The position numbers and the translations under genes are program-made. Shown in pieces: positions 1 through 61,674 of a DNA stretch of 64,000 bases (position 1 is the first letter of the stretch; each line of letters opens with the position of its first letter). The DNA lies in assembly GCA_031763025.1 (NCBI GenBank), contig JASSKH010000003.1, forward strand, positions 5,198,718 to 5,262,717, written 5' to 3'. The stretch is from Macrocystis pyrifera (taxonomy: Eukaryota > Sar > Phaeophyceae > Laminariales > Laminariaceae). The notes beneath the pieces were generated by a model, which ran no database searches, had not been told where the DNA came from, and saw only the letters and a program-made list of their open reading frames with translations.

Positions 1-4
1 AAAA

Positions 5-245
5 TGGTTTTTTTTTCAGGTTTGGGAGGATACCGTTGGACGCCGCCGGCAAGCTCTTGCCCCCTAGAGCATGCATCCACCTCATTTCTTCGAGCCCGTC
101 ATCTATACTAGTTGATTTTGCCCGCCACCGCGCGGGTTGTCCGTGGGCTGAGTCTCTGTCGAGATCGAGCGTCAATCGTGTATCGTGGCACCAGCTGAAA
201 TGATACTTTTTTTGGTGAACTTCGCGTTTCCATTCGCATACTATA
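5..245 (+). repeat. R module, copy 1
   Basis: A T-run ending in cag is followed by a 29-base conserved segment (gtttgggaggatacc at its start) and then GCAAGC where the other copies have GTAAGC. A GC-rich self-complementary stretch (cccgc / gcggg, about 121-140) and a T-run followed by GG (about 208-216) come next. The function is unknown. Confidence 0.75.
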
Positions 246-316
246 GCAGGGTTTTTAGAGTACAACAGGAGTGGGTTGCTTTTTGCGTCAGAGCAAAATT
301 ATGGACGAGTACTGCT

Positions 317-650
317 GTACTTTTTTTTTTTTATCCATCACTTTTACTTCCCAGCCCACTCGTACGAGGTGTTACCCTCGACGACCTTCTGGACAAGCCG
401 TGGTCACAGGTGTCGTCCCTTCTCCCCCCCGGTACGTGCCTTTATTTTTTGTCGCGCATAGGGTCCAGCATTCCCACTGCTCGTCGATTTTCATCGAATG
501 TAGCCAACTCACGCTTTCGCGCTTTCCGCTTATCAATTTGTTATGCAAGAAAAAGTCCCTATGAGCATGCACTCGGTGGGACTTGAACCCACGAAATTGA
601 TCTTGACAAGCACGCGGACCACCTACCAAGCCACCGGGGACGCCGGTATA
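317..650 (-). mobile_element. SINE-like retroposon with tRNA-like head, copy 1
   Basis: The paralogous array unit at 4173-4345 reads straight through the point where this unit has about 334 extra bases, so it acts as an empty site. The filled site breaks after ctgtac and resumes at tactgcagagtgc, leaving at least TAC on both sides. Read on the minus strand, the insert starts with a tRNA-like head (650 down to about 575), then a body (490-345), and ends in a 12-base A-run (T-run at 317-328 on plus). This is the expected order for a tRNA-derived SINE. A second, truncated copy lies at 14775-15006. Confidence 0.7.
575..650 (-). other. tRNA-like pol III promoter region of the SINE
   Basis: On the minus strand an A-box-like TGGCTTGGTAGG is followed about 35 bases later by a B-box-like GGTTCAAGTCC inside a perfect 5-bp T-stem (gtggg / cccac). 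The acceptor and anticodon stems do not pair well, so this is a tRNA-derived head and not a working tRNA gene. Confidence 0.6.
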
Positions 651-753
651 CTGCAGAGTGCTGTATCCAAGAATTATCGTAACAGAATGGCAAAAAAAAT
701 GCATTGTGTCTATCAGTACATCAGTACAACAAACGTCTCGAATGGCAAAAAAT

Positions 754-998
754 AAATGTTTTTTTTTTTTTCAGTTTTGGGAGGATACCGTTGGACACCG
801 CCGGTAAGCTCTTGCCCCCTAGAGCGTGCATCCACCTCATTTCTTTGAGTCCGTCATCTATACTAGTTGATTTTGCCCGTCACCGCGCGGGTTGTCCGTG
901 GGCTGAGTCTCTGTCGATATAGAGCGTCTATCGTGTATCGTGGCACCAGCTAAAATAATTATTTTTTGGTGAACTTCGCGTTTCCATTCGCATACTAT
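754..998 (+). repeat. R module, copy 2
   Basis: This copy has the T-run plus cag, the 29-base conserved segment, a donor-like GTAAGC, the GC-rich hairpin region, and ATTTTTTGG resembling an Sm-protein site (about 961-969). It ends at catactat, where the 3.2-kb element is inserted. Confidence 0.75.
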
Positions 999-2091
999 AA
1001 AATATATTTTACAAGGTTCCCCTGCGGGAGGTGCCGTATGAATAGGGGAGTGGCGCAAGAGCGAAATCATATTCGTATGCAACCCTGCACACTTGTGTAG
1101 AAGTAGTACCTGCATCCACCCATCATTTTAACCTGAAGAACACACGACATATTTTTGAGGACAGACTATTATACTGTTCACGGAATTATAGTGTGGGATC
1201 ATTACTACACAATAATATTAAATAGGGTAGCGGTAAGTGGATATATCGATCCAGCCGACTCGCGGCGATATATTCTTAAGTATACAAAAAAATTGCACGA
1301 GGCCGAGGTTGCGCCATTATACTGTGTGACCGGTTGAGTAAGGTACAGCACGTACATACTGGTACAATAATATATACTGGTATGTTCCCCCAAAATATAT
1401 GTTTCCTGGTGCTCACGGTAACATCATTTACAGATAAATGCTCGAGAACAAATCGTGGTCCGAGCACTGAGAGTATTGGAGTACTGGCGGCAAAAATATT
1501 GCCAGCACTGAGAGGGCCCAAATACTGAGAGTAATGAGAGTGAGCAGTACCGAACCCCGATAATACAGGAAAGTATGTGCCCGCAGTAGTAGTATCGAAA
1601 CACGAAAGACTTGGAGTAAAGGCAATACGCGCAGTACAGAACCTCGAGATACTGAGAGTATTTCGCAGTACATGCATGATATATATTCCTCGCAAATGCA
1701 TATCTCGAAATACTGCCAGACTGCTTCAAGTACTCAAATCGTCTCCAGCGAAAGTGGTTTGCTCCAAGTCCCACTCGTGTGGGACTATCTGGGTGTGTTT
1801 GGTGCCGAACGCTGGGCCTGAGAATTGTCGACGCGGTGCACAGACGGTTGAAGTATACATCATACTCGAAGTATACTGGGCATATATATTGAGGGTATTT
1901 CATTATTGCGAGTACTGAGTCTCGCAGAAGAAACAGCAGTACGAACACTACCAACGGACGAAATACTGTTACTACTGTAGACTAGAATTCTTGTAGTACC
2001 CGCGGTACTTAACCCGAGACACTTGAAGCACAACAGGGTTGAAGCACAACAGGGGGTATCCACGCCAGCAGCAGTAGCGAACCCCGTATTA

Positions 2092-2196
2092 TTACGGGGG
2101 TCCATAGTTAACAGGACCTATGCTACACATAAAGAAATATATATTTACCTATTTTTACTAACAAAATTTGGTCCCGTTAACTATGGACCCCCGTAA
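2092..2196. mobile_element. MITE, 105 bp, TA target duplication, copy 1
   Basis: Terminal inverted repeats TTACGGGGGTCCATAGTTAA and its reverse complement flank an AT-rich core, with TA on both sides (2090-2091 and 2197-2198). The homologous place in the second 3.2-kb copy (near 17835) lacks the insert. A copy of the same length lies at 33933-34037. TA duplications with short inverted ends fit a Tc1/mariner-type non-autonomous element. Confidence 0.85.
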
Positions 2197-2677
2197 TAGT
2201 GCGAGCCCGAAAGTAAACGAAGTAGTATCGACAGAACCTGACAATACTGTGAGTACTCGCAGTATATATCTCGAGTACAAAACCCCCGAAATACTGCGAG
2301 TGTACGAAGTACCTACGATAATAATCAGTATTTTCTCGAGCATACTTTGCATTTACTCCCAACTATTGCGATTGGGAGTAGCTGTGAAATGTTGAGGTGT
2401 GAACGCACGCCACACGTAAGCGGGCCCAAACTCTTGACCTTGGGTAAAAACACACAACAAGTAACTTGCATATCATATTATACGTTCAGAAAAGCAAGGT
2501 GGATGAATGTACTGGTACAAAAAAAGTCAGAAGTGGAAAATAAACACACACAACTTGTATTACAGCAGTATATCATACTATACACTCAGAAAAGCAAATG
2601 TGTGAACGAATGTATGATTGTTAATACTACTGTTGTAGTCCTGGTACAAAAAAAGTCAAAAGTGAAATATAAAAAAA

Positions 2678-2820
2678 GCGTGCATGGTGCGAGTCGAACA
2701 CGGAAGACAGCAAGAACCGCCTAAACCCAGCCCACAACTCTGAAAACGCGTCCTGGGCCGCAAATGAGCGGCCGATTACCCAGACCAGTCCCAACACTGA
2801 GCGAGGGGGGGTAGGCAGGA
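2678..2820 (-). mobile_element. tRNA-like insertion inside the 3.2-kb element
   Basis: This block of about 145 bp is absent from the homologous site near 16305 in copy 2. On the minus strand it contains a TGGGCTGGG..AGG A-box-like word and GTTCGACTC, which resembles a B box, followed by a run of seven T's (pol III terminator-like). No proper cloverleaf could be folded by eye. It may be a short SINE or a tRNA pseudogene. Confidence 0.4.
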
Positions 2821-4345
2821 CAAACCTCGGAAACGAAATTTTTTATCGCGTGCAGTATAAATGTCTACGCTAGAACAGTGCTCGTACAACTGGCACGTCG
2901 TGTTTTTACGCAATCTAAAACACTTTGCACGATCTCCTACAGCAGTAGAGTGGATCGTACAGGTGCGACTGCATATCCAGCAGTACTGCTGTAGAATGCC
3001 ACGCGAGGAACGTACGTGTACTGACCCCCTTTCAGGATCTATCGGTCAGCAATGTAGGACACACAGCAATGAGAACTACTGCTGCTGTAAGTATGCTTTG
3101 TACGAAAGCTGCTGCTGTACGAATAATTTGTGGTACATACAGCAGTACGAACGATTTGTTTTTGTTGTATACTAGAGACGACGAACATATCGATCCGGGG
3201 ATAATGGGTCACACATTGCGGAAGGTACGTGCATCGGCCAATGAAGATGGCAACAACAACGAACTACAGTAGTAGTACTGAGCTTCCAGCGCGGATCTTC
3301 CACATGCGCATAGTACCCTGCCTGCTGCTGCTGTTGGCGCACTGTGCTGAGCACAGCTGGAGCAGTGGCAATGTTGGATCACACACAGCAATAAACAGTT
3401 ACTGCTGTAGTTCGTGGAGTGGTCAAGTGATCGATCGAATAAACCAACTGGTGTGATAGCCGCAGTACGATCATGCCATACGCGCAAGGTGTGCCCACTG
3501 CTGTTGCTGCTGGGCAGCAGGGCAGCAGGGTTGTGGTGCTGTAGGAAGCTGGAGGTAAGCGCGCTCTGTGCACTGCTGTGTGTATTGTTCTCTAGGCGGT
3601 GGTCCGTGCTCCGTGCAACACAAAAAATATGTACAGGGATATACCTGGTATACGTCATCCTGGGTATATACGGATCAAAAAGCATATGGCAAACGGTGGA
3701 ATGCGGACTGCAGGCTCCGACAAACGCAACCAACCACAGCAACACTGCGCATATGGGCGTGCCGCACACGAACGGCGGGTGGGCGGGGGGGCGGCAGCGT
3801 TGGGACGTTGGGATCTGTGTATGTTGTCTGTTGTGTACCTGGTACATGTCTGAGCTGTGTGCTCACACAGCTAGCTCGTGACAGCCTATATAGGGGAGAA
3901 AACAGACAGCATGAATGACATGTATGTACCGATACGTACGTACAAAGTAAGGCCTCTTTACTGAAACCAGGGAAATCGTCTTATCCACTCCCGCCGGAAA
4001 AAAAAACTTTGTGCGCCCGCCACGCGCTTCAGAGTGCATGGATCGCGCCGAGACCCAGACCAATGTGTCCGGCAGGGCTTCCCGTGTCCGTGCACTTAGT
4101 GTTTTGCCTAAAAGTGCTCGCGCGAAGAGAAAAGTTGGCAAAAGTACGAAAATTTGACAAATATACGTATACATTTAGGAGGTATGTACAGTACAGCAAC
4201 AGGAGTGGGTTACTTTTTGTGCCAGAGCAAAATTATCTACGAGTACTGCTGTACTGCAGAGTGCTGTATCCAAGCAGTAACATAACAGAATGGCAAAAAA
4301 ATTGCATTGTGTCTATCAGTACAGCAGTACAACAAACGTCTCGAA

Positions 4346-4600
4346 TGGCAAAAAATAAATGTTTTTTTTTTCAGTTTTGGGAGGATATCGTTGGACACTG
4401 CCGGTAAGCTCTTGCCCCCTAGAGCATGCATCCACCTCATTTCTTCGAGTCCGTCATCTATACCAGTTGATTTTGCCCGCCACCGCGCGGGTTGTCTGTG
4501 GGCTGAGTCTCTGTCGAGATCGAGCGTCTATCGTGTATCGTGGCACCAGCTAAAATATTTCTTTTTTGGTGAACTTCGCGTTTCCATTCGCATACTATTT
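4346..4600 (+). repeat. R module, copy 3
   Basis: This is nearly identical to copy 2. It has the T-run plus cag, the 29-base segment, GTAAGC, the cccgc / gcggg hairpin and a late T-run followed by GG. Its end runs straight into module B, giving the unoccupied form of the junction that the 3.2-kb element interrupts at 998/4173. Confidence 0.75.
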
Positions 4601-5390
4601 TATAGGAGGTATTTACAGTACAGCAACAGGAGTGGGTTACTTTTTGTGCCAGAGCAAAATTATCTACGAGTACTACTGCTGTGTCTCGAATGGCAAAAAA
4701 ATTGCATACTACCGCAAGTCTTTTACAGCAGCGAAAGGCAAAAAATGGGCTTTTCTTCAGGTTTGGGGGGATACCGTAGGACGCCGCCGGCAGCAGTGGA
4801 TTACTTTCTACGTTTCGCCTTTATTTGTTTGCGATCGTCGTCGTATTTTTCCGTGAATGACCCGTCAGTTGAAAACACATGTCAATCTGTCGAATGTGTA
4901 ACAACCCACAAAATGTTTTTCATTGGCCAACAAAGCGTCGTCACTCGCATACTATAGCAGCAGCAAGCAGTAGAGCCTGAAAACTACTACTACTAAAAAA
5001 TTGCATACGAACTATCGTCGGTCTTTTACAACAACAGCAGTTAGTTGATTACTTTCTACTTTTCGCCTTTATTTGTATTTTGCGATCCTCGTCGTATGTT
5101 TCGGTACTCGCAAAAGAATGACCCAAAATTGCATACTATCATAGGTCTTTTACAACACAGCAGTTAGTTGATTACTTCCTGCTCTTCGCCTTTATTTGTA
5201 TTTTGCGATCATCATCGTATGTTTCGGTACTCGCAAAAATAATAATCATGCAGTTGAAAATACGTCAATCTGTCGAATGTGTAACAACACACAACAAAAA
5301 ATGTTTTTGTTTTTTCATTTTTGGGAGGATACCGTAGGACGCCGGAGGCAAGCTCTTGCCCCCTAGAGCATGCATCCACCTCAGTTCTCA

Positions 5391-6301
5391 TTTCGCCAAC
5401 AACAGCTATTTCGTGGTACAGAGATCTCTTGTCAATTTGTCGTTTACTTGTTGTAATAAACATCCGACATGTTTTGCTTTGGCCAAGAGAGAGTCGTCAT
5501 CGTTCTGATTGATTGTTGGAGATCTCTCCCCGTTCATGTTTCGTTTTTTATTGGCCAACAGTCTTGTATTTAGCCCTGCAACCCCAATTACACCTCAATG
5601 ATATCGATCCCATTGCTGTGGTACTGGTGCGGGTGCTCGTGCTGTCTTCGTGTGCTGCTGCTGGATATATGTCCCCCCGCCGCGTACTATAACAAGCGGT
5701 ACCGATAGTCAACAAGTAGACGCCCTGCCTGAGCCAAACACAGCACTCTGGGGTTCCATCTGTGCTGGTCCCGACTGGCCTCTCCCGTCACTCTCAACAA
5801 CTCCACCTGCGACTTCACAAAAAAAGAGACAAGCAAGCTGAAAACAGCGCTCAAATGCATTTCATCGAGGGCAATAACAATACCTGAATTTAAGGATTCT
5901 AAACTCGATTTCCACCACATTTCCCAATGGGTCACATAAAAACGTATATGGATGGTTTTTCAGGGTCACGGGGAAGAAGGATGAGAACCCCCTCGACCTC
6001 AGTCTTGTCTACCTCACAACTACGAGTACAAAAAGTGGAACCTCTACAACGACAACAACAAGAGCAACAACACTATATCTTCTTTTGCTCCCGCGCCTCA
6101 TGGCAAGGCCGAGCGGCGCCACACCCGGTGCACGAGTTGTCCGCTTACGCTAGCGTGATAACTGGGTTCCCCGGGAAACGCGACCTTCCTCGACCGCCCG
6201 CTTATGCTAGCATGGACCTATAAGTCAGGATGGCTCGTGCCAGAGGGGATGCACTACCGCTGGATACCGTGCTGAGGGAGACCCGGTGAGAAGTTGAAAA
6301 A
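5391..6301. other. region without a recognised gene
   Basis: No conserved coding unit is recognised. Two attggccaac words (CCAAT-like, near 5551 and 4918) and an A-rich leader before 6302 are present. A minus-strand ORF at 5687-5935 contains IALDEM, which resembles a transposase motif only weakly. This stretch may hold the promoter and 5' UTR of the gene at 6302. Confidence 0.4.
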
Positions 6302-6503
6302 ATGGCTTTTGAGGTGGCTGGTGACGCCGTAGACATTCCTTGGATAAAAGTCATACTCGCGCAGCAAAAGTGGCGCGATGGGCTGACCGACGAGGAAAAC
6401 AAAGCGGCCGTTGAGGTAGGGTATTGGACTGCCGAAGAATGGCAGAATCTCGAGGCTATATCGGAATACGATAAACAACAGCAGCAGCAGAAGCAGCAGC
6501 AGA

Positions 6504-6534
<31 letters not shown>

Positions 6535-7186
6535 GCAACGTTATCACCAGCAGCAGCAATTCAGCCTCCGCAACGACCCCTACTACTCAGAACATCACCA
6601 CCAACTGCACCAACATGAGAAGCGTTTCCGCGAGTACCACCAGCAACAGCAGTACCGCGACCACTACTACCCGTCAGAATACTACCCGCAGCAGCAGTAT
6701 CATGAGCAGCAGCAATTTAGCATCCAAATCGACCCCTACTACTCAGAAGATCACCACCAACTGTACCAACATGAGCAGCGTTTCCACGAGCACCACCAGC
6801 AACAGCATTGCAGCGACCACTATTACCCGCAAGACCACTTCCAGCAGGAGCAGCATCAACAACATGCCATTCAGCGAGACCCGGCCGACGCTAGTTACGC
6901 ACAGCAGGTAGCAGTTAGAGCAGATGGGAGAGGAGCACCAGCCCAGGAGAGCAACGCCCCACCATCAAGCGAAACACCCTTGACTGCGATTTCGTCGAGC
7001 GAAAAATCGGGCGCAGGGTATGAAGTGGATATAATCCGCGTGCTCGGCGCTGTCTGTGAAAAACAGAAACGCGATCAAAGCCTACATCATGAAAGTGAGA
7101 CGCTATGCAGGAACACATGGAAAATCGGGTGCAGCGGCAACCACAGGGTTTTTGTCAGCGCAGAAGCCGAAGCAGGTGGTCAATGA
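6302..7186 (+). CDS. hypothetical Gln/His/Tyr-rich repeat protein
   Basis: This is an open frame of 294 codons. Its ATG is in a good eukaryotic context (A at -3, G at +4). Residues 1-57 look globular and charged, with WTAEEW near 42-47. Residues 59-79 are a polyglutamine tract broken by lysines and encoded by CAG/CAA. Residues 87-138 and 139-190 are two copies of a 52-residue repeat with the core DPYYSE..HHQL.QHE.RF, and a third repeat starts near 189 and decays. Residues 195-250 are low-complexity linker. The C-terminal end is uncertain. A donor-like GTGAGA lies at 7095 and an acceptor-like tttttgtcag ends at 7158, and another frame is open across 7079-7218, so the gene may be spliced or frameshifted. 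No family is recognised. Such Q/H-rich proteins are often adhesive or regulatory, but that is not shown here. Confidence 0.5.
6475..6538 (+). repeat. CAG/CAA trinucleotide repeat (polyglutamine)
   Basis: A CAG run interrupted by AAG and CAA encodes residues 59-79 of the protein starting at 6302. Smaller CAG blocks continue downstream in the same frame. Confidence 0.9.
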
Positions 7187-7364
7187 TCCGTTTAGAACCA
7201 GGAGGATCAGGTGGTGAACGTGGAGGAGGGTTGCATGCAGGAAGGAATTTTGCAGCTGAGCGATGGGGACCTGGTGGGGCGTGAGGAGGAACAGGTTGGG
7301 GGTGAAGAACAAGTGGAGAAGGACGCGAACCGCGAGGAGCATGGACGGGAGGCGATGGAGAAAA

Positions 7365-7857
7365 TACACCCAGCCGCAGCAGCAGCAACCGTTTCAGGAG
7401 GAGCCATCAGCTTCGACCTCCCCCATTCCGTGGCCGCCGCCATTGCCAGCCGAGTGCGAGGGAATGCAAAGTTGGGAGGCCAAGGATTTGGGCCATCGGG
7501 GGATTGACTGCGGGCAAGGTGCCCGACGTTGGACTGGTGGAAGGACACACCCAGCCGCAACAGCAGGAACTACCCCAGGAGGAGCTACCAACTTCGACCT
7601 CCCCCACGCCGTGACCGGCCATCATTGCCAGCTGAGCGCGAGGGAATGCAAGGTTGGGAAGACAAGGATTTGGGCCATCGGGGGTTGACTGTGGGCAAGA
7701 TGCCCGACGTTGGACTGATGGCAGGACACACCCAGCCGCAGCAGCAGCAACGACGCCCGGAGGAGCTACCAGCTTCGACTCCCCCAACGCCATGGCCGCC
7801 CCCATTGCCCGGGTTGACGGTGGGCAAGAAGCCCGACGTCGGACTGATGGAGGGGCA
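7365..7857 (+). repeat. minisatellite of about 180-bp units, left part
   Basis: Three units begin near 7365, 7548 and 7728, each starting cacccagccgcag. The third is shortened by an internal loss. A fourth, partial unit continues at 13955-14070 on the far side of the retroelement, so the array was one block before that insertion. The third and fourth units share a reading frame giving QPQQQQRR.EE.PAS and PWPPPLP, so this may be the repeat-rich 3' part of the host gene starting at 6302. Other units are shifted in frame. Confidence 0.75.
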
Positions 7858-8113
7858 TGTTCGTAGAGTCCAAGCCTGGATGCCCTGACCACCACGTGGT
7901 CTGATGAGTTTCTTTATACTCGTTGTAGTAGAGGACAGAGGAGGGGAGAGAGAGCGGAGCCTAGCTCGTAGCTCGGAGCAGAGAACGGAGCAGAGAACGG
8001 AGTCCTCAAACTCTCCTCGTGAACACACGACTTATTTCATAATAACGCCTGCGAAGATATACGCAACCCTCTACAACTTGTAACCGTCGCTGTTGGAACG
8101 ATCCAAAAGAACA
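7858..8113 (-). repeat. 3' LTR of the copia element
   Basis: This is 256 bp with TGTTC at one end and GAACA at the other. It is about 95% identical to 13699-13954 (about 12 differences by eye). The flanking gggca at 7853-7857 matches gggca at 13955-13959. A purine-rich tract on the minus strand (8114-8125 on plus) abuts it, as expected of a polypurine tract. Confidence 0.9.
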
Positions 8114-8426
8114 CCCTCCCTGGCTCTTCACAGCAGTGACGAGACCGAAAAGACGTTCAAGACTTGCTAGGACCTAAGAACAGCCAACGACAGTCCCGCA
8201 GGAGGTAACCCGGCCACCGGGTCAAAACCCCCTGTATAACACATATACTCCACCATTGCAATTGAAACAATGGCCGCATTCCAAACGATGACCATGGCCA
8301 GAGAATAAAATGCCAAGCGGTGCCCTACTCCCCCATGCCCCTCAAAGTAGCGCAGGGTTGGCGACCTGATAAATTATTCCTCGCATCACTCAAACATGGT
8401 ACTCATCGAATAATGCTCATACCCCC
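8114..8426. other. non-coding 3' part of the copia element
   Basis: This lies between the RNase H region and the 3' LTR on the minus strand. Apart from the purine-rich tract next to the LTR no feature was recognised. Confidence 0.6.
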
Positions 8427-11400
8427 TTACTCACCCTCCAAAGGCAGATTCAACAAGAACCTACGGTGAGACTTAAAAGGGGTCGCAGCAAGGGATTTCG
8501 TCAAAATATCCGCGTGCTGCTCTTCCGAAGCTACGAACTGAATGTCGATCTTCTTAGCACGAAGTAGCTCTCTGACAAAAAGAAAACGCACGTCGAAATG
8601 CTTACTCCGAGCAGAACGAAGAGGGTTTTCAGCCAACGCTATGGCCCCCTGGTTATCCTCGAAAACCCGGACACATGATCCGCTTAGCTCAGGACAGATA
8701 AACGACAACACCGCGCCCGTAAACAAAGCTTCCTTTACCCCTTCACCCAGGGCGACATACTCTGCTTCTGCTGTCGACAACGTAACACACCTCTGCGTGC
8801 TACTTGCCCAACTGACGGCCGCACCCCCTAGGGTAATTACCGTCCCCGATACCGAGCGCCTATCGTTCGACTTGTCCGCATAATCAGCATCACTATACGC
8901 AGTCAAATCCAAACCCGAATCCGTACAAAAGTCAATCCCATAAACCTGGTCCCGTGAAGGTAAGCCATAATCTTCAAAACTGCCTTCCAGTGCCTCTCCG
9001 TTGGGTTGTGGGAGTGGCGCGCCACAGCACGCACAGCGTTCGAGATGTCCGGCCTCGTCATGGTCGACAGCCACATCAAGCTGCCCACAGCCTCCCTGTA
9101 CGGCCAGTCTCCTCCAAGTTCGCCCTCCTCTCTTGGACCTAGTTCCACACCGGGGGTCGCGGGGATATCAGAGGATGATTTAACACCAAAACGATTCAGC
9201 ATGCTCTCCATGAACGCCTCCTGCGTAATCTCCAATGTCTCCAGTTCCCAGTCGCGTTTGAAAGCACAACCAGTGTACCAAGTCAGTTCGCCGAGGTTAT
9301 TCGTGGGAAATTTCATAGCTAGCGTGGCATGGAAATCTCTACATGTCTCATCCGATCCTGCGATCACGATGTCATCTACATGAACGGCCATGGTCAGTTC
9401 TACCTTGCCGTCCACAACCATGCGAAACACACACGGGTCAGACCTACACTTCTCCATTCCGTGCTCTACCACGGTCTCTACCAATAATCCGGCCCACTGC
9501 CGTCCGCTCTGCTTTAGACCATACAGTGATCTGTTTAGGCGGACGATCTTTCCTGGCATGTCACCACGCCCACCGGGCAGTTTCATGTATATCTCGGCGT
9601 CGAGTTTCGCGCGCGAACAAAAGCTTGTGCGACGTCTAGATGAAAAATCTTTAAGCCATGTTCATTTGCAACAGCCGCCAGAATTTTAACTGACGCTGAC
9701 GAGGGAGTTGGTGCAAACGTTTGAAAATAATCTACATCCTGCACCTGGCTAAAACCCTTAGCCACAAGTCTGGCCTTTGTCTTTACTATCAAGCCATCCT
9801 TATCCGTCTTGTATGTAAACACCCACTTCGCACCTAAAGGTTTCCGCCCTTTTGGCGGTGTCGCGGCTTCGTACGTACCGGTCGTTTTGTGACCGTCCAA
9901 CTCTATTTTCATGGCCTCGTGCCACGCCGCTTTGTATTGAGAACGCTCTACATCTGATACGGAGTGTGGGGGCGGTTCTACGTCTTCCGGGAAACCACTC
10001 GACATGCACACGCTCAACTCCCCTTTGTTCTCCACAGCAGGTCCTCCGGGCATCAAAGCCACTGCGTCCTCCGTCGTCCAGGACGTACGATTCAGCATAC
10101 TCCCAGGCTTCGTCCACGATTCGTACGCTGCCGCAAGGAGCGCGTCTGCGGCTCCTTCATCCATCCTTTCCTGGTGCACGGCAGGTTCACCCTCCAGGCG
10201 TTGGCTCTGACGCCGGGTCCGGCCCCGTACTGTCGGGGGGAGCCGGCCCCAGCTGCTGAGCTCGTGTGCAGTTCTCCCCGACAGGACCGCGGGCGGATCC
10301 TCACCGTTCCCTTGGACGGTGTCGGAGGCTGATGCTGCGCCCGGGTCGTTTCCGGCCCTCCCTGTTGGGACCGAGGAGGCGTCCACGGCGCCCCCCTGAG
10401 ACGAACCCGTCGTCTCGGGTGTTTCGGCCCCCCCCCTGCCGGGACCGAGGAGGCGTCCACGGTGCCCCCTTGAGACGAACCCATCGTCTCGGGTGTTTCG
10501 CCGGCGGCCTCGCCGGCGGCAGGTGCCTGCTGTGCGCGCTCCAGCATAAACGCGTCCAGGTCAAAACCCCCCACGTCACGTCGAGGTCGTTCAAGTAAAC
10601 CAGACCGTCGTCCAGCTCATCCACCACCCCCCCACCACCTCGATCCGACGTGCTCACGTCGTTTGCCTCTGACCCCCCCTATTCCGTAGACAGGGAGTCA
10701 TTCGCCTCGGCAGGTACAGGTGGTGTAGGCGACACGCGTTGCCAGGTGACATTGCGCGTCATTAGCACAGTGCGTTTCTTTGTCAACGCTCGTACTGAGT
10801 CTCGGGGGTTGGTTGTTGCAGGGCCAAGGTAAAAGCACTCTCGTGCTGTCGCCTGTGACTTGTTTTCCCTCTTTACCTTGCAGTAGCCAGGCTTGAGGAA
10901 GGGCAGTAGTACTACCGGGGGGGGGCTACCATGCCACATCTCATGCGGCGACTTGCTCTGCGGGTTAGCTGTTGTTGCTGTGCGGATCAAGGCGTTACAC
11001 GCCCAGTGGGACGCTTCCGCCCACAACGACGTCGTGGCCGGGAGGTTCGCGCCAGGAAAAAGCTCTTGAGCCTGGATTCGGCCCGCCATTGCGGCCGTCT
11101 CTATCAAACCTAGCGCGCGCTCTGCTACTCCATTGAATTGGGGACTGTCGGCCGTCGTGAATTCCTGCTTGATCCCTCGTGATCTACACAGGTCGCCAAA
11201 CTTTCTACACAGGTCGCCAAACTTTCCCCCGCGGAATTCACCACCCCCCCATCATATCGGACGATTACCACCGTAGAAGGGACACCGTCTGCTCGAGAAT
11301 CCACAAGGAACTGCTCGAACATTTCCGCGACGTCCGACTTGTGGCGCATAAAGTACAACCACGTATATCGTGATAAATCGTCGCGCACGATGAGAGTATA

Positions 11401-13698
11401 CCGCTTCCGCCCGAGAGACTCTACCACCTTTGATCCACTCAAATCCACAAAAACTCTCCCGAGCTTCTTATCTGCTCGTGTGTGTGTGGACTGCCTGATA
11501 CCTTTGCGGAGACCCTTTGCCATGGAGCACCCTTTGCACTCCAGTAGCTCTCCCTCGAGGACAATCCCTTGCTGCTCCGCGGTCTTGCGAAGTAGTACCT
11601 CGTGGAAGTGTCCTGCAGCGCAGTGGAAATCGTTGATGTTTATTGCAGACTTGTTGGGCAGTTGTCCCGGGGCTAGTACAGCACAGGCATTTTCCCCACA
11701 ACTGCGGTCGACCCGGTAGCCGTACAGGCTGTAGAGGGTCCCACTCAACGGAAACACGATCGAACGCTCTGACTTGAGCCTGACTACAACCCCCGTGGGG
11801 CGCCCTTCGAAAGAATGGCCGTTTTTGACGAGAGTGGGCAGGGAAAATAAGTGGTAGCGGAGATCCGGCACGTGCGCAACGTTCGTAAGCAGCACTTGCA
11901 CGGGACCGTTTCCGGAACGAAAGACAACACTCACGTCACCGTAACCTTCGATCGCTCGGGTGGATCCGTCAGCGATTCGGAGAGTCAAGTTGCATTCTCT
12001 ATAGTTGATCATGCAGTCAGCGGAGGGCGTCATGTGAGTAGACGCACCACTATCACATATCCAAGCCTCGTCTCCTACCTGCCAAGCAGACTCCCCTTCC
12101 CCCGAACCATCGCTCCACTTGCCTGTCTCTTCGGCCTTGAAAGCTGAGGCCTGGACCGTACCTTTTTCCGGGCCGTCGTTCTTTGCCCCATCTTGACTCG
12201 TCACCGCCATGACAGCTTCTTCTTTCGATGAGGGGCAGACATCAGCAGCGTGCCCCAGCCCGTTGCATCGACTGCATCGATCCGTGGACGTGGGACAGGC
12301 ATCGGCAGAGTGCCCGCGTCCCTGGTATCGACTGCATAGCTTCGCCGTACACTCACTCCTCCAATGGCCCTTCTTGCCACACCTATGACACTTGCCCGCT
12401 GGAGTACTTCCGCTGGCGGCTTTGGCGTTGCTGCCATTGCCACCAGCAGCCGCGGCCGAGCCACCACCGTCCTCGTTGGTGCCTCTACCGCCTCGTCCGT
12501 GACCCCGTCGTCCACCTTTTTCTTTGCCATTTCCTCCACCTTTCCGGCGACCACCGCCACCGCCGCCGCCGCCGGCGTACATAGCATGGCCTGCGTGGCC
12601 AGCGTTGGACCCCTTCTTCCTGTTTCCAGAACGTCGGTGATGCCGTTCTCGAACAGCCTTGATGATGTCATCACGGCCGATGCTGTCACGTGATGCCAGG
12701 TTCCGAGCCCCCACTTCATATTCGGCAGGCAGAGCGTCAATAACGATGGTGTACATCATGTGGTCGTCTACTACATTTCTGCTGTTTGCATTTCCGCGGC
12801 AAGATCCTCGATCCTGCCCATCTCCTTGAGCGGGTTGCTCCCCGGCGCCATCTTAAAACTGTTAAGGCGTCTGATTTGGCCCCCGTCGTCTGAGGGCCGT
12901 ACCACGCAAGGAGAGCGTCCCACGCTTGCCTCGGCGAGGTGCACCGGTGCAAAATATTTTTATCGCTCATGCTCTTGAGGGTCGTCGACAGGAAATTCCA
13001 TGCCAGTGTATGCCTGTGCACACTTTCGCGGCTAAACCCCCTAGCGACAAGCATCGAGTTTTCGGTGTCTAGTTCCCCTACGGGAACGTACTGCGGTGGA
13101 TCCGACACGAAAGCAGACAAGAAACCAACTCCTTTGGCGTAATACCGAGCGTCTCTTGTCCAGGGGTTGAACTCAGATTTTAGCCCACTAAACAATGGCA
13201 CAGGAGTGTGTTTGAATGCCAAATGGCGCGATAGAGGCAGGTCAAATCCACCACCCAACTCACCGCCAGGGTATGCACCCCATCCTCCTGTCCTCCCATG
13301 CTGGTCTGGCTGACCCCTCGGTGGGCCAACCTCGACAGGCAACGCAGTTCCTCCGCGTCCAGTTGCTCCCAAATCTTTCGAGGCGCCCTCACGCAAATTT
13401 GTCTCTTGTTCTGCTGCAATCTCTCTTACAGCAGTGGGTACTGCCCCTTGTGGGCTCTCCCCTACAGCAGCGCTACTCACAGCGCTGCCGAACTCCGATC
13501 GGCCGTTGTTCCTCATGAACTCGGCCATCATGTCCCTCATGGCGTTCAGCATCGACGCCTCTCTGTTCTCGATCGCCAGCTTGACCTCGCGTCGCAGCGT
13601 TTCAACGTCTTTCGAAGAATCGTGCTCTTCTTGAGCCGATCCCTTCGAGGGCATCGTGGGCTTCTTGTACCAGACCTCAAACGTTCAAGACACTAGTG

Positions 13699-13954
13699 TG
13701 TTCGTAGAGTCCAAGCCTGGATGCCCTGACCACCACGTGGTCTGATGAGTTTCTTTATAATCGTTGTATCAGAGGACAAAGGAGGGGAGAGAGAGCGGAG
13801 CCTAGCTCGTAGCTCGGAGCAGGGAACGGAGCAGAGAACGGAGTGCTCAAACTCTCCTCGTGAACACACGGTATAATTCATAATAACGCCTGCGAAGATA
13901 TACGCAACCCTCTACAACTTGTAACCGTCGCTGTTGGAACGATCCAAACGAAAA
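13699..13954 (-). repeat. 5' LTR of the copia element
   Basis: This is the partner of the LTR at 7858-8113, with the same length and about 95% identity. It is followed at 13955-13959 by the target duplication gggca and then by the continuation of the minisatellite. Confidence 0.9.
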
Positions 13955-14070
13955 GGGCACAGCCAGCCGCAGCAGCAGCAACGACGTCAGGAGGAGCCAC
14001 CAGCTTCGACATCTCCCGCGCCATGGCCGCCCCCATTGCCCAATGAGCGCGAGGACGAGCAACAAGGTGT
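13955..14070 (+). repeat. minisatellite, right part (fourth unit)
   Basis: This begins gggcacagccagccgcag and continues the array cut by the retroelement. Its reading frame agrees with the unit ending at 7857. A 25-base stretch at 14068-14092 begins GTGTGA and ends tttttcag, so it resembles a very short intron. The frame is also open through it until about 14227. Confidence 0.7.
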
Positions 14071-14774
14071 GAACGGATTTTGTTTTTTCAGCAGCTTCTC
14101 GGGTTGGGGTACGGGGCCGGGACGTAGGCATCCTAGTCGGCCGAGGAGGACGCGAGGACGCGAGAAGGACGAGGTCACCGCCTACAACTTAAGAGTTATG
14201 GAATGTATTCCTCATTTTTCTCTGATCTGATTTTTATGTTGGGAGGATTTCTGGTTGAATGGTGTACGAGCAACTGAAATCATTTTTAGTGTCACTAATA
14301 TTGTAGTCTACTGCATCGAATGTACCACGTACAAGAGGTCGTTCTATCTGGTACCAGGTAGGCTGGTATGGTACCACACGTATATGTAGACTTTGATTGG
14401 TTGATTTATTTTTGGTTTTTCCTGAAATTAATGTTGTGATTGGCCAATGGATGATTGTGAATTAGCATCCCTGTTTGCGTAAACATCACATACCTGGTAC
14501 CAGGTACGTGCATATGAATTTTCAGTGATTGCGATATTATTCGGTTTGGTTATTATTTTGGTGCTCCATCCACCAATGGATGTACTTTATATGTTCTGTG
14601 TTATACCTGGTACGTACGCACCATCACTGGATGGAATGATGCGCGTAGATTTTTCCAGTGGAAACGTACCTATATATATTTTTTATTTTGCTCTGGGAGT
14701 AGCATTTCTTCGAGGGCAATAACAACTTTCAATGTTGAGGTCCGAAATTTCCTTTTCTTAGGAACAAGGTGGTG
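14071..14774. other. region without a recognised gene
   Basis: It is AT-rich with repeated palindromic words of the type acctggtaccaggt (near 14347, 14495 and 14612). A short match to 5861-5884 (cgagggcaataacaa) lies at 14710. No gene or element is identified. Confidence 0.4.
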
Positions 14775-15006
14775 CCAAGTCGTCGCATCTCCGAGATCTC
14801 CATCAACAATGCTTTTTATTGGGCCCCGAATTTAACAACCCCAGAGCAGTGCGAATGCTGGGCCTGATGCGCCACAGAAACGAGGGCACATACCGGGGGG
14901 GAGAAAGGGACGATACTTGTGACCACGGCTTGTCCAGAAGATCGCTGAGGGTAAAAACCTCGTCAGGCTGGAAAGTGAAAGCGATTAAATAAACAAAAAC
15001 ATAAAA
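14775..15006 (+). mobile_element. SINE-like retroposon, copy 2, 5'-truncated
   Basis: About 14830-14990 matches the reverse complement of 345-490 (for example ttgtccagaag and gaatgctgg), followed by an A-rich tail (aaataaacaaaaacataaaa). The tRNA-like head is missing, so this is a truncated or decayed copy of the SINE at 317-650. Confidence 0.65.
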
Positions 15007-15106
15007 TATGATCTCGACGCCAGGCGTTGCGCCTCATTGCGCCTACGAGTATCTTGCCGCTCTGTACAGATGTGGTAGCTGCGGAGGCACACACTTCCAG
15101 ATCGTC

Positions 15107-18100
15107 ATATGTATACGTGTGTTTGTCAATTTTTCGGTCTTTTGCCAACTTTTCTATTAGTACGAGCAGTTTTCGGCTAAACACTAAAATTGCTCGGACA
15201 CGGGAAGCCCGACCGGACACATTGGTCGAGGTCGCGGCGCGATCCGTGCACTCTGGAGCACGTGGCGGGCGCTCAAAGGTTTTTTGCGGCGGGAGTGGAT
15301 AAGACGATTTCCCTGGTTTCAGTACGAGAAGCCTTACTTTGTGCCATGGTACATACGTACCGGTATGATAATATTGCCTGTATTCTTCCCTATAGGTTCT
15401 CATGAGCTGTGAGCACACATTCCGGACGTATACCAGGCACACAACAGACAACATGCACAGATACCATCGTTACAACGCTGCCATCCACACGCTGTGCGTG
15501 TGCGACACACTCGCATGTGCAGTACTGCTGTGGCTGGTTGCGTTCATCGGAGCCTGCCGTCCGTATTCCACAGTCTACCTTACCAGGTGCCATAGTTTTT
15601 TTCATGCGCATATACCCAGGCTGATGTACCTACCTGCATCATCATCATCACCTCTCTTCCTGCTGCTTCTTCTGCGTATTGCTGGGTATGATCCAACATT
15701 GCCACCGCTCCACCAGTGCACTGCCGTGCTCGGCACAACAGTGCGCCAATAGCAACAGCAGCAGCAGGCAGCGTGCTATGCGCACATGGCAGATCCGCGT
15801 TACACTCTCAGTACTCAGTAGTGTTTGTTGTTGTCATCGCGGCATTGGCCAATGCACGTACCTGCTGTAGTTTGTGTCCGGCAGTTTTTGCTCCGCGCCG
15901 ATCATGCCCGCATCGTGTACGTTCGTTGAGTCCAGTACAACAAATTGCTCGTACAAGCATCGTGTACCAAAAACAAACTTCCAGTTATTACTGACGGTTG
16001 TGTGTCCTTACCTGCTGACCGACAGATCCTAATATAGAGAGCCAGCTGAAAGGGCAGCAGTACATCTTTATCTGTCGCAGTACGCGTAACGTCTGCTGTC
16101 ATATCATATCACATGGCATTTTCCAGCAGTACTGCTGTACATGCAGTTGTACCTTTGTACTTGTACAAGCTACTCTAAGAGATCCTGCTGTGTGTGTTTG
16201 ATTGCGGAAAAAATACAACGCGCCAGTTGTATGAGTATTCCTGTAGCGTAGATGACAAACTGCGCTTGATAGTATTTTCGTTGCCGAAGTTCCACTCACA
16301 CAATCCCCGTTTTTTTCTCTTCAATTTTTTCTATAATTTGTACCAGTGCATCCACCTTCCTTTTCTGACCTCCCTGGTACTATTTACAAGGCGCTTCGCT
16401 CCACGGGCGGCCTACGCCGCCCGCTACGCTCGCTCAGGAAGGAAACATCAAATTATTCGAAGCGGACAGAGGTCCATGATTGAATATTGTCTTTTTTATG
16501 GCCCCTGTAGTTAGCTGCAAACTGGCGACCTGATAATGCCAAGAGTCCCGCCGCCATGCTTCAGGAGAAAACAGCTCGGACGCCACATATGTTTCGCATC
16601 GCGGGCGGTTTTCCGTTACGCTCGCTCACACGTCGTACATACGTACATACCCCAGGTAGGGTACATATTTTCTTCTTTCGATATGCTCTGTGTCTGTGTA
16701 CTCGTCATATGTACGAAAGATAAAAAGCACAGAACGGCACAGCAACACAGCAAAAACAATGGAAATGAAACTGAAAAATTCTAAAAGAAATAAAATCCCC
16801 GTCCCCTTTCGTGGTGTAATAATTTACTACTTGAGTGGAACACCTTACATCAGCCAAACAAAAAAAAAATGAAAAAAAGAAAAAAATCTTACAGCAGAGC
16901 TTCTCTCTCAGCCTCGTACGCCGCCCGCCCCTCTCGCGACCATCTCGCAACCGATTCAGTCCGGGTAAAGCTTCCCTCCCTCTCTTCCACAGTGAGCCCC
17001 GTCGCCCGCCTCGCGTGAAGCCCGGTGCTCACCGTGGACCTCGACGCAAGCTCGACAATGTTGGTGCTCATTCGGGGTACCTCCCTCTTGTGACTCTCAG
17101 CCCGGTCGCAAAAATAAGCACCGCTTGAATATTATCTTACAATCCCGAACGAACCTTAAATACTCGTACCTACTCTATCCAAAATCACAAATGGAGGCCA
17201 GACAGAGCCTATTGATGCATCCCTCGTGTCTCGAGGCACACGCGACGCCTAGGCACGAAAGCGGCGACCGCGCTCCTTGCAACTCCCCCTCTACTCGCCA
17301 GCATCCGCTGACACCCGCGACGGTGCCGGGTTCGCCCGCGCAACCGTGCTCGGAGTACACGCACGCACACGAAACGAAAGAAGAAAAAAGGAAAGAAAGA
17401 CTGAAAGTACGACGAGGAATGGAGAAAACAAAGACTCGCTAGAACGGTCCGGCACGTAATGAAAGGAGGCGATTCCCGAGTGGGAGCTCTGAGAGGCCAG
17501 GGATGTACCAACCGAGCACGCTCAGAGATCGAGATCTAAGTAAGCATATCTATACCTATGATAGAAAATAATTGGTTGTGTATTTTTACGCAAGGCCACG
17601 GAGTTTGGGCGCGCTTACGTGTGGCGTGCGTTCATACCTCAACCTTTCACAGTTGATGCTCCCAATAATACTTGGGACTAAAAAGCAAGCTTCAAGCATA
17701 TTCGAGAAAATGATGTGGGTACTTCGTGCACTCGCGGTATTTCGGTTTTGTTGCAGTAGATGCTGCGAGTACTCGTCGCAGTACTTCAAGGTTCTGTACT
17801 TCTGCTGATACTACTCTGCGGATGCTTTCGGGCTCGCACAAATTCGACATTCGCTACTACTGCTGCTGTGGATACTCCCTGTTGTGCTTCGCGAATATCT
17901 CGGGGTTTTGTACTGTGCGGGTACTGCAAGTATTATCAGTATTTCGTCCGTTGGCAGTGTACTCGCAGTACCGAAGTATTCTCATTATGCCCAATATACT
18001 TGGAGTATGGTGTATACTTCGACCTTCTGCGCACCGTCTCGACAATTCCCAGGCCCATTGTTCGGCACAAAACACTCACAGATGGTCCCACGAGAGGGAG

Positions 18101-18877
18101 TTGGAGCGAATTATTTTCGCTGGGGACAACTCCGAGTACTTACGGCACTGACAGTACTTTGAGAAAAATTACTGCGAAGAGCATGGTACTGCGAGTACTC
18201 TCAGTATCTCGAGGTTCCGTCATGCGGATATTGCCTGGACTCCAAGTATTTGGTGTTTCGGTACTGCGGGTACATATTTGCTTGTGCTCTAGGGTTCCAT
18301 GCTGCGCATACACTCAGTACTCTCGGAAGGTGGGCCTTCTCAGTACTCGCATTAATGTGTGGGTCTTCTTAGTACTCGCAATATTTTTTTACCGCCAGTA
18401 CTTCAGTCCTCTCAGCACTCGGAATACGAATTGTTTTCGGGCATCTATTTAATGTGTCTGTGAAGCCTATATTTTACTCTGAGCGCCAAAAAGCATTTAT
18501 TTTGCGGGAATATATTTTGTATGTGCTGGACTTTACTCAGTCGGTCACAATGTATTATGTCGGAACCTCGACCTCACGCTACTTTTCGTGCTTACGTTTA
18601 CGCCGCAAGCATTGATTGGATCGCCGCGAGTCATCTATTCAGGATCAATATCGACTTGCCGGTATACCCTCTGTTTGTTTTATTGATATGATCCCACAAT
18701 ATGTACTTCCACAAACAGCAGCATATGGTCTGTCCTCAGAAGTATGTGTGTGTTCTTGGGTAGATGCAGTTATTTACCGGTATATTAATAGTTGTAAACT
18801 GGTGTGCAGGTATTTCATACGAGTATTATTTCGTTCTTGCACCACTCCCCTAGGCCCCTCCCGGAGGGGAGCCTTGT
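15107..18877 (-). mobile_element. 3.2-kb non-coding dispersed element, copy 2, with insertion
   Basis: This is the reverse complement of 999-4172 throughout, except for an extra 1.2 kb at about 16385-17576. Its outer end, ccttgt at 18872-18877, mirrors acaagg at 1011. A perfect hairpin CCCCTC-CCG-GAGGGG lies at 18855-18869, just inside this end. It lacks the MITE and the tRNA-like insertion found in copy 1, so it preserves the empty sites. No coding region shared with copy 1 was found. Confidence 0.7.
16385..17576. mobile_element. 1.2-kb insertion within copy 2 of the 3.2-kb element
   Basis: Homology to copy 1 stops after the match of 16321-16380 with about 2480-2530 and resumes at 17577. 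The extra block begins near tactatttacaaggcgctt, contains two Ser/Arg-type low-complexity ORFs on the minus strand and a purine-rich stretch (17375-17410). No inverted ends, target duplication or enzyme gene was recognised. Loss from copy 1 is the alternative explanation. Confidence 0.45.
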
Positions 18878-20694
18878 AGATATGCATAACATGAAGTGGA
18901 AGCAACCGCGTATCGAGTGCCAGGAAAGTATTTACACACCTGATACGCCCGTACTGCCTGAAGTGTTATGATACTGCTTTCAATGAGGTCGAAAGCAGGT
19001 CGAAAGCCCGGCACTGGTAATTACCTGGGTTCAGGCACTGGGATCGTATAATACTTGGAAGGCGTATCTTAGGTGGAAAACCAGGGGTTTTCCAGAGGGG
19101 CACGAGCTTGGTCTCAGTCTCATCCGCGTGTACGAAAGGAATAAAATTGCTCTTCTTTCTCCAAGCAAGCAGAACACGTGAGTACCAACGAGTACCGAGT
19201 TGGTAGGCGAACCAGTGTCCCGCCTGCATGATCTTAAGTGACGTCTTCGGCTCAGGACTTGTACACGTTCGTACCTACTACATGTACACTCTACACCCCA
19301 TATTGGCAGGATACTGCTGCAATATTTTTAACTCTCCTCAAATGATCGCCTCGTACTATTATACTATTATAACTACAGCAGTAGTACCATTGTTGCAAGA
19401 TAATGTGCCACAAGTCAGGCGATCTCTGCTGTAGGTCTCTCTATCTATGGGCCTGGAGACAACACCGTCGGGATCATCGACAGTAGTAGTGGAAGCGCGA
19501 AGGTTTGGGTGGCAGACAAGGTCAACAAAACTTTGACTTTGTCGGTCCGGTCCGTGAGTAAGTTGCTGAGCCCTTCAGCCAGAAGAGATACGAACGTTTC
19601 ATTTGCGTCAAGGTTCGCCGATGTAGACGCAAGTTTACTTGCTCAAAACTCAAACCTGTGACGGACACCCCCTCGCCCAGTCAACAGCAGCGTACACTGC
19701 TGTTGTACCTTCTTGTACATCATGATGCTCTATTAATAGCTCGCCAACATCTCGCTACCTGCACACAGGTCGCAGAGCAAGTTTCACCTCCGTGATTTCC
19801 ACACGTCGTGGAAGTGGACGGAGCTAATCGGCATGGGGGCGCAGGAACATTGCTCACATATCACGTTGTCAACATCACATAGCTTTGTCATGTAGGACTC
19901 GTAGTTGTACTGCACTGGGAACAGCACGAACGTGATTGCCTCTTCTACCCGTTCTCACCACACACTGTATTCGATGCAGCAGTAGCAGCTACCAGAGGTG
20001 ATCGGTCAGTGTCACAGCATACATACGTAGAAAACCTTGTTTGGAGTGTGGTGGTTCGACGATGGTGTGCTATGGTCGACTGCCGATGATGCGCACAGCG
20101 CTTGATTCTGGCAGGTTTGCGTTGGAGGAACGACAAAAACCTCCCCAGTTGAATGTCGCAGTGGGTGTGGGGGGAGGTGAGACGGAGAGGCCAATGCTCT
20201 GTCCAGGAAATATATACATACGTGGAGTAAACCGCGCGGAGCGACCTCTACAGGTTGGCTGCTCTACCGCTGTGAAAAAACTATCCCACACTACAACTAT
20301 TCAGCATATCAAGAGAACAGGCCTTGACGGATCAACTCGATGGGGTCAACAAACAAATTACCTGCACTGAAATCATCCAAGCAAAGACCCCCTTGAAATT
20401 TACGACAACAATATTTTCAAAGAAAGCATGAATATACAGCAGATGCCAGATACCTGGTGTGAGACTGAGAGGTACGCGTGAACATCAGCCATCGGCGTAG
20501 GCAGCAAGCAAACAAATAAATAGCTCTGAAACCGTTGGGCTGTTGGAGCTACGACTATCCGTCGTATATATCGTACCTTAGACGTAGCCCTAAACCTACA
20601 ACCCTGACAGATTGTTTATCTTTATTTACTGCAATATATATAGCCCGCCCAGCTATGAACAACCAGGGCTGTTCGCGGGTCACGTTAATCCTCA
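18878..20694. other. region without a recognised gene
   Basis: Only short ORFs are present. The most protein-like is on the minus strand at 18966-19229 (87 codons), with no recognised family. No repeat or mobile element was identified. Confidence 0.4.
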
Positions 20695-20960
20695 CGGTTC
20701 GGCCCGACTCGGGTCGGGTTGGGTGGGATCGGGTGACTCGACCCGATCCGCGCAAAATGCTAAGGTTTCTTGACCTGATCCAACCCGACCCGATAAAATC
20801 CGGGAATCCTCCTGATCTGATCGGACCCGACCCGCGAGATGTGAAAACCTCCTATCGCGTCCCGACCCGTGATTCGAAAAAGACCTGGTCCAATTCGACC
20901 ATATCCAACCCGACCTGACCCGTGATATTTTGAAAAATGACTCGATCCGACTCACCCCTC
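20695..20960. repeat. degenerate GACCCG/CGGGTC low-complexity repeat
   Basis: Words such as gacccgaccc and cgggtcgggtt recur on both strands with irregular spacing. The arrangement switches strand near 20740, so it can form imperfect hairpins. Confidence 0.8.

Positions 20961-23072: not shown

Positions 23073-23073
<1 letters not shown>
20961..23073. other. region without a recognised gene
   Basis: Minus-strand ORFs at 21180-21467 (95 codons), 21740-21979 (79) and 22037-22282 (81) have balanced, protein-like composition. They resemble no family I know and are within chance length. No mobile element was seen. Confidence 0.35.

Positions 23074-23156
<83 letters not shown>
23074..23156. repeat. 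poly(G) tract of 83 bases
   Basis: The tract is an uninterrupted run of G, flanked by aggacac and tactcatc. Glycine or proline ORFs across it are artefacts of the run. Confidence 0.95.
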
Positions 23157-23157
<1 letters not shown>

Positions 23158-26100: not shown

Positions 26101-26515
26101 GCTTTGATCGGTTTCATGTTCCCGTAGGTATACGCCAGGGGCGGTCCGTTTCACAGTGGTCCAAACAGCGCTTGTATGAGCGCCTGACATAAATCGGTTC
26201 GCGGCCGGCTATGGGCACTGAGCCAGTACGCGCCTGTGGAGAGGTCGCCGCTGGTACCGATATTGTTTCAGCGGAACACAGGCGTTCATCATGTCAGATA
26301 TATTCGTATTTCATCACAGCTGGCACCCTTGCACGACTGCTTGCACAATGGCGGCAACATAGGGCGTTCAACCAAGATGCGGGTACACGCTTGCTGCCTG
26401 CGGCACTCCGCCGGCAGACGTGTTCTCAGTTTTTCTCATTTAGATTCACCAAACTCGGAGACGCGCCCAGCTCGCGAGAGGTAACGAGCCTGCACATGTT
26501 CTGGCGAAATGAGAG
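23157..26515. other. region without a recognised gene
   Basis: Both strands carry scattered ORFs (for example 24750-25154 minus, 134 codons, and 23756-24253 plus, 165 codons) that are not recognisable. A weak duplication is visible at 25866-25920 and 25950-26010 (tgtcgcatacgtgt / tgtcgcgtacgtgc). No clear gene was found. Confidence 0.35.
25465..25485. repeat. short hairpin, gttcctcacttgaggag type
   Basis: A 7-bp palindromic arm (ctcctca / tgaggag type) with a short loop. Similar hairpins lie at about 30292-30312 and 30772-30792. Confidence 0.5.
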
Positions 26516-33930: not shown

Positions 33931-33932
33931 TA

Positions 33933-34037
33933 TTACGGGGGTCCATAGTTAATAGGACCTATGGTATACATAAAAACCTATAAATTTACCTATTTTTACT
34001 AACAAAATTTGGTCCCGTTAACTATGGACCCCCGTAA
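33933..34037. mobile_element. MITE, 105 bp, TA target duplication, copy 2
   Basis: It has the same length, inverted ends (TTACGGGGGTCCATAG) and core (atttttactaacaaaatttg) as the copy at 2092-2196, with roughly 90% identity. TA flanks are at 33931-33932 and 34038-34039. Confidence 0.85.
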
Positions 34038-34069
34038 TAAATGATACCGAATATTGTGTAGTAGACATG

Positions 34070-34125
34070 GGTCAATATATAGGTTTTTGAGTCCCGTAGG
34101 TCCTATTTACTATGGTCCCCCGTAA
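34070..34125. mobile_element. partial MITE of the related subfamily
   Basis: Only one end is recognisable (gtaggtcctatttactatgg then cccccgtaa, followed by TA). It matches the right end of the element at 61501-61601 and lies 32 bp from the full copy at 33933-34037. Confidence 0.65.
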
Positions 34126-34127
34126 TA

Positions 34128-61601: not shown

Positions 61602-61674
61602 TAACATGCTGTTGAAGACATGCCGCCCCGGAGCCCGTTTTTATGCATTAATAGTTCGTGTCCTGTCTCACAGC

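Follow-up and report, generated by a model that had tools for sequence, protein, structure and literature searches.

Two inverted copies of a non-coding 3.2-kb element, probably a non-autonomous transposable element, in Macrocystis pyrifera

The long terminal repeats (LTRs) of retrotransposons have TG...CA ends and a target duplication of 4-6 bp. Canonical Helitrons start with TC at the 5' end, finish with CTRR at the 3' end, carry a palindrome of 16-20 nt at ~11 bp from the 3' terminus and insert between A and T (PMC4067079). Cryptons are defined by a lack of inverted repeats and by direct repeats of 4-6 bp at their termini (PMC3212892). For the brown alga Ectocarpus, giant DNA transposons (KDZ, EnSpm and Sola-1; generally >10 kb) are reported, along with 94 'Unknown' transposable element families that make up 3.93% of the genome (PMC12477816); since 94 families are kept there without a class, an unclassified non-coding family would be unremarkable in Ectocarpus. 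Here, a pair of inverted copies of a non-coding element is described from a stretch of 64,000 nucleotides of Macrocystis pyrifera, referred to as the window (GenBank assembly GCA_031763025.1, contig JASSKH010000003.1, positions 5,198,718 to 5,262,717, forward strand). The pair is best explained, with a probability of roughly 0.78, by a stand-alone, non-autonomous, non-coding transposable element of ~3.2 kb that was inserted twice, separately and in opposite orientation.

The inverted pair and the tandem array

The copies and their surroundings are as follows.
1010 to 4174, plus strand: copy 1, running from TACAAGG to ACGTATACAT; homology to copy 2 starts and stops there, and the array ends at 998 and restarts at 4176
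15109 to 18878, minus strand: copy 2, in opposite orientation to copy 1; limits from the copy-to-copy alignment
1 to 998, plus strand: tandem array left of copy 1, unit of ~427 bp, interrupted by an insert resembling a short interspersed element (SINE) at 318-648; may extend past the window edge
4176 to 4678, plus strand: continuation of the array on the right-hand side of copy 1; its junction at 4598-4603 is intact, and fragments of it reach ~5388
999 to 1010, no strand: 12-bp palindrome AAAATATATTTT, which separates the array from copy 1; only its last base is present in copy 2

Insertion of copy 1 into the tandem array, alone, is well supported. The array unit measures ~427 bp (4176 to 4603). 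By self-comparison of the window, the left part of the split unit (649-998) was aligned to 4252-4598 with 94.3% identity (350 columns, 17 of them mismatched); for the right part (4176-4251), identity to 4603-4678 is 97.4% over 76 positions; 998 corresponds to 4598 and 4176 to 4603. Flanks joined from 998 to 4176, with bases 999-1010 removed, align to the intact junction at 4598-4603 except for a 4-base gap, and fit a second uninterrupted paralogous junction at ~245 less closely just past the junction. An earlier note on this DNA, made from its letters alone, had copy 1 interrupting the array junction exactly; the interruption was confirmed at both correspondences, and it is almost clean. The limits of homology between the copies lie within ~12 bases of the array limits (998 versus 1010 on the left, 4174 versus 4176 on the right), and a unit of the array is split by copy 1 as by the precise insertion of a stand-alone transposable element. 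Because the array is in register on both sides of copy 1, the 3.2-kb unit was inserted by itself and is no part of a larger, 17.9-kb element with inverted arms; the earlier note had argued the same on both counts, and the in-register flanks and the intact paralogous junctions bear it out for copy 1. Its conclusion that the pair represents two separate insertions follows from the lone insertion of copy 1, by which copy 2 would be an independent insertion as well, although copy 2 yielded no empty site of its own. A tandem array can act in this way as a built-in empty site, by which a stand-alone insertion is separated from an arm of a larger palindromic element.

The inverted pair 1010-4174 (plus) and 18878-15109 (minus) is far above chance, both in the self-comparison of the window and in a sensitive pairwise comparison. 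The longest matching blocks are 1010-1915 versus 18878-17959 (E 2e-94) and 3651-4174 versus 15628-15109 (E 1e-116). Collinear matches cover 2,210 of the 3,165 bases of copy 1 (~70%) and ~2,232 of the 3,770 bases of copy 2 (59%), counted over eight of ten alignment rows; of the two rows omitted, one is a 35-bp match outside the collinear order and the other a 36-bp match that stands isolated. Ungapped identity ranges from 71.6% to 88.3% across eight hand-chosen blocks. The middles (2478-2863 of copy 1, 16253-17556 of copy 2) have essentially no sequence in common, and ~250 bp of copy 1 (3394-3650) have almost no counterpart in copy 2. The pair was previously given as reverse complements along its full length, which overstates the match: inverted it is, but only over the collinear shares given above and with different middles. 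A start of copy 1 at 999 was not upheld, as homology begins at 1010 with TACAAGG and bases 999-1009 of AAAATATATTTT found no counterpart in copy 2 by pairwise alignment; the palindrome may be read as an array variant or as target-related sequence.

The outer ends of both copies are the same TACAAGG end, as the arms of one large palindromic element would be, and giant DNA transposons of the Ectocarpus kinds named above (KDZ, EnSpm and Sola-1, generally >10 kb; PMC12477816) are known in a brown alga. A single element of 17.9 kb (~11.8 kb without a Copia-type element that lies between the copies) with terminal inverted repeats of 3.2 kb, for example a giant DNA transposon, is nevertheless very improbable. 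The array is in register on both sides of what would be the first arm, the arms have unlike middles and are 12-28% divergent over the blocks measured, and the outer flanks carry no clear duplication, as judged by eye. A six-frame scan of 4176-7857 yielded no Pfam match above cut-off and a single one below it (E 0.041). Nine open reading frames (ORFs) in or beyond the pair were scanned: six have retroelement domains (Copia or long interspersed element, LINE; one of them below cut-off) and three have no match.

Divergence from the next array unit is ~3-6% for the two halves of the split unit; between copies 1 and 2 it is 12-28% in the blocks measured, plus insertions and deletions. Barring gene conversion of the array, copy 1 therefore did not acquire most of these differences after its insertion, and the copies are not the arms of one recent element unless the array was homogenised in that way. 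Copy 2 is much older, or both copies came from sources that already differed, again unless the array was kept uniform by gene conversion.

Ends, interior and mobilisation

The element is divided as follows.
1010 to 1100, plus strand: hairpin-bearing end of copy 1; counterpart 18796-18878 in copy 2, 85.4% ungapped identity over 82 positions
3960 to 4174, plus strand: other end of copy 1, the most conserved part; counterpart 15109-15323, 88.3% over 213 positions (188/213)
1440 to 2340, plus strand: third rich in AGTACT and CGCAGTA, adjoining the hairpin end, with a degenerate internal duplication; counterpart 17660-18443
2860 to 3660, plus strand: third rich in CAGCAG/CTGCTG, near the conserved end; counterpart 15620-16260; 17 and 11 sites versus 1.24 and 0.93 expected
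2090 to 2198, plus strand: miniature inverted-repeat transposable element (MITE) nested in copy 1 and missing from copy 2; 93.6% identity to 33931-34039, inverted arms 2085-2118 and 2170-2203
16253 to 17556, minus strand: middle of copy 2, absent from copy 1; elsewhere in the window only short weak matches, the best being 36 bp to 2521-2486 (E 5e-4)

No terminal inverted repeat was found: of 21 inverted pairs within 980-4190, not one connects the two ends of copy 1, so the element lacks what defines a DNA transposon with such repeats on a single copy, and the remark that the two ends of one copy are unlike holds. The conserved block of 215 bp terminates at ACGTATACAT. At the opposite end, a 15-nt palindrome, CCCCTCCGGGAGGGG, lies ~10 nt from the TACAAGG terminus in copy 2 and is degraded in copy 1; palindromes of the kind searched occur in 81 of 3,737 30-nt windows of copy 2 and in 551 of 21,323 over the whole stretch. 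None of the four ends folds clearly better than its shuffled versions (z-scores of -1.14 and -0.87 for the hairpin end, -0.75 and -0.61 for the other). A second ACAAGG followed by a hairpin (GGGCGGCCTACGCCGCCC; z -1.82) was observed at 16386-16440, within the unshared middle of copy 2 and in the orientation opposite to the element's own end; it is possibly the end of a nested relative.

AGTACT occurs four and nine times in the third adjoining the hairpin end of the two copies, versus 0.52 and 0.31 expected, and the internal duplication shows in a second match of the 1440-2089 profile, at 2179-2393 (E 5e-8). An array of binding sites was considered for the enriched AGTACT-type motifs and set aside, as the motif columns of the block tested are no better conserved; a function is not claimed.

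Six-frame Pfam scans of each copy (12 frames, stops as X) gave no match above the curated cut-off; the single sub-threshold match across both copies (Jiraiya, E 0.094) was discounted. Translated matches between the copies were found in all six frames of copy 1, as expected of non-coding DNA. Coding remnants are accordingly unsupported, and the absence of a shared protein, noted before, was corroborated within the reach of these frame scans and of the translated comparison. A structured or tRNA-like RNA was likewise rejected, since Rfam gave no match at gathering thresholds and ARAGORN no gene (bacterial code) in the whole window.

In the proposed mechanism, the ends of the element would be the recognition signals for an enzyme that a different element of the host genome provides in trans, while the interior would be free to drift, to duplicate and to be replaced; mobilisation in trans is thus inferred, not shown. 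Better conservation of the ends than of the interior is expected if a trans-acting enzyme needs them. Both ends together are identical at 258 of 295 positions (87.5%) versus 1,243 of 1,638 (75.9%) in six interior blocks (Fisher p 5e-6), and the conserved end at 3960-4174 alone versus the interior gives p 3e-5, so that most of the significance comes from this non-hairpin end. Several points weigh against a non-autonomous element moved in trans. The p values are a guide, the blocks being hand-chosen, with the shared stretches 1945-1976, 2041-2081 and 3034-3136 omitted and columns taken as independent; taken alone, the hairpin end falls short of significance (p 0.06), and motif-bearing columns of one tested block match in 81 of 106 cases versus 272 of 345 for the others. 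No target duplication was accepted, since, apart from TACA, no reading falls at the same end positions in both copies. The number of copies seen is two, within the window, and their flanks differ. Exact-pattern scans gave no match in viral contigs (three patterns) or in prokaryotic genome contigs (one pattern). Four profile blocks built from both copies detected no third copy in the 64 kb; the six extra profile hits (E 5e-8 to 3.1) all lie inside the two copies.

Other elements in the window

The insert at 318-648 (minus strand, 331 bp) divides an array unit (317|649) in the same manner as copy 1 does. It has a poly-T run at its start and, read on the minus strand, begins with an apparent tRNA-like head and B-box (GGTTCAAGTCC); it may be a tRNA-derived SINE, a reading for which neither ARAGORN nor Rfam gave a hit. 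A partial relative lies inverted at 14844-14999 (80.9%).

Between the two copies, a Copia-type element was located at ~7858-13952 (minus strand), with an LTR match of 7858-8111 to 13699-13952 (95.7% over 254 bp). Its ORFs, within 8427-13654 on the minus strand, come from a frame broken into several pieces and include reverse transcriptase domains; a search of viral contigs with the reverse transcriptase gave one pattern match and no confirmed relative. The element sits within a separate tandem repeat of 181 bp (7366-7809, with a further unit at 13954-14041) and is uninformative about the pair.

Two LINE copies, ~72% alike, were found at 50291-51788, 51879-52952 and 56112-59741; the domain scan covered the second (minus strand) and detected endonuclease and reverse transcriptase domains in it. 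Further members of the MITE family, with ends like TATTACGGGGGTCCATAGT, are present at 33931-34128 and 61502-61604; the former consists of a unit at 33931-34039 and, after it, an inverted partial unit that is more distantly related (34046-34128). The retroelements (Copia and LINE) and the MITEs point to eukaryotic DNA. Tandem repeats of the CGGTACGGTA type fill two blocks, 60284-60579 and 61001-61319, and show nested periods of ~41 and 156 bp; 83 consecutive G at 23074-23156 may reflect an error of sequencing or assembly. No Pfam match rose above cut-off in frame scans of four regions (4176-7857, 19000-23900, 24000-28900 and 36000-40900), and three stayed below it (E 0.04-0.05).

Termini, class and comparison with known systems

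The ends can be read as TGTATACG...CTTGTAG/A. TACA is present at both termini of both copies, at most one base from the homology limits, and can be extended as TnTACA; a 4-mer common to two random 10-nt stretches of copy 1 was found in 17.5% of 20,000 trials. With systematic offsets, there are eight exact duplication readings of at least 4 bp: for copy 1, the three are TACA, TTTA and ATTT, and for copy 2, the five are CATAT, TACA, ATAT, CATA and TATG. As the termini fit no canonical definition checked and a duplication cannot be fixed from two copies, no class is assigned. Within the non-autonomous, stand-alone reading, the enzyme class was divided by judgement only: about a quarter each for Crypton-like and Helitron-like, about a fifth each for a solo LTR and for a decayed derivative of a large DNA transposon, and the rest for others. 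The likelihoods worded below for the Helitron-like, Crypton-like and solo LTR versions are shares of that explanation and not alternatives to it.

One such version, unlikely when taken singly, is Crypton-like: a non-autonomous element with short direct repeats at its ends that a tyrosine recombinase mobilises. It would account for TACA, extended as TnTACA, at both termini of both copies, and Cryptons lack inverted repeats, bear short terminal direct repeats in fungi and stramenopiles and have non-autonomous forms (PMC3212892). A shared 4-mer of this kind, however, arises by chance at the rate stated, and the array junction predicted for copy 1 is not a close match to the intact junctions. According to the same source, most stramenopile CryptonS elements bear TATGG and not TACA, and the non-autonomous Cryptons described there are those of animals, the Cryptons of which have no terminal repeats (PMC3212892).

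Also unlikely by itself is a non-autonomous Helitron-like (rolling-circle) element with the hairpin end as its 3' end. Such an element has no inverted repeats and requires no duplication, and the palindrome CCCCTCCGGGAGGGG of copy 2 is near the distance of ~11 bp given for canonical Helitrons (PMC4067079). The 3' terminus is, on the other hand, GTAG or GTAA and not CTRR, the 5' terminus TG or AT and not TC, and the flanks are not A|T; the degraded palindrome of copy 1, the weak folding of the hairpin end and the frequency of similar palindromes, all given above, argue in the same direction.

Solo LTRs, left as two copies after a retrotransposon with very long LTRs lost its interior by LTR-LTR recombination, would also be non-coding, kilobase-sized and stand-alone without a terminal inverted repeat, and are a rather doubtful version. 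A 4-bp duplication can be read (ATTT in copy 1, ATAT in copy 2), although the two readings require end positions one base apart, which makes the duplication inconsistent between copies, and exact readings of this length were common among the offsets tried (three and five, as listed). The ends TACAAGG...GTATACA can be read as TA...CA, which we take to be a non-canonical LTR end pair; no canonical TG...CA pair is present at the homology limits. The sole LTR element scanned in the window, the Copia, has an LTR match of 254 bp.

Distinctly unlikely, finally, is a family outside every described transposon superfamily, that is, large and non-coding elements without inverted repeats, with a short hairpin end and a conserved end of 215 bp. 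Their enzyme would be of the rolling-circle or tyrosine recombinase type, and no link between it and ends of this sort has been made so far. No publication was recognised as describing this element, the literature not being searchable by sequence. Should many genome copies turn out to share these ends, defined ends would be available for a family probably left as 'unknown' by automated tools, and its enzyme could be sought by matching them.

The element is best filed among large non-autonomous transposable elements, as one of a known kind. It resembles non-autonomous Cryptons in its lack of inverted repeats, its non-coding interior and a possible short terminal direct repeat (as in fungal and stramenopile Cryptons), and differs in that the repeat is TACA, not significant alone, and in that no recombinase partner was seen. 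With non-autonomous Helitrons and Helentrons it shares asymmetric ends and a palindrome near one end (copy 2; 15 nt), but not the 5' TC, the 3' CTRR or the A|T target. Like solo LTRs and LTR remains of the large retrotransposon derivative (LARD) type, it is stand-alone, non-coding and kilobase-sized; unlike them, it has no TG...CA ends, secure target duplication or full-length partner in the window. To the 'Unknown' families of Ectocarpus it can be likened by description, not by sequence, as a repeated element without a class assignment.

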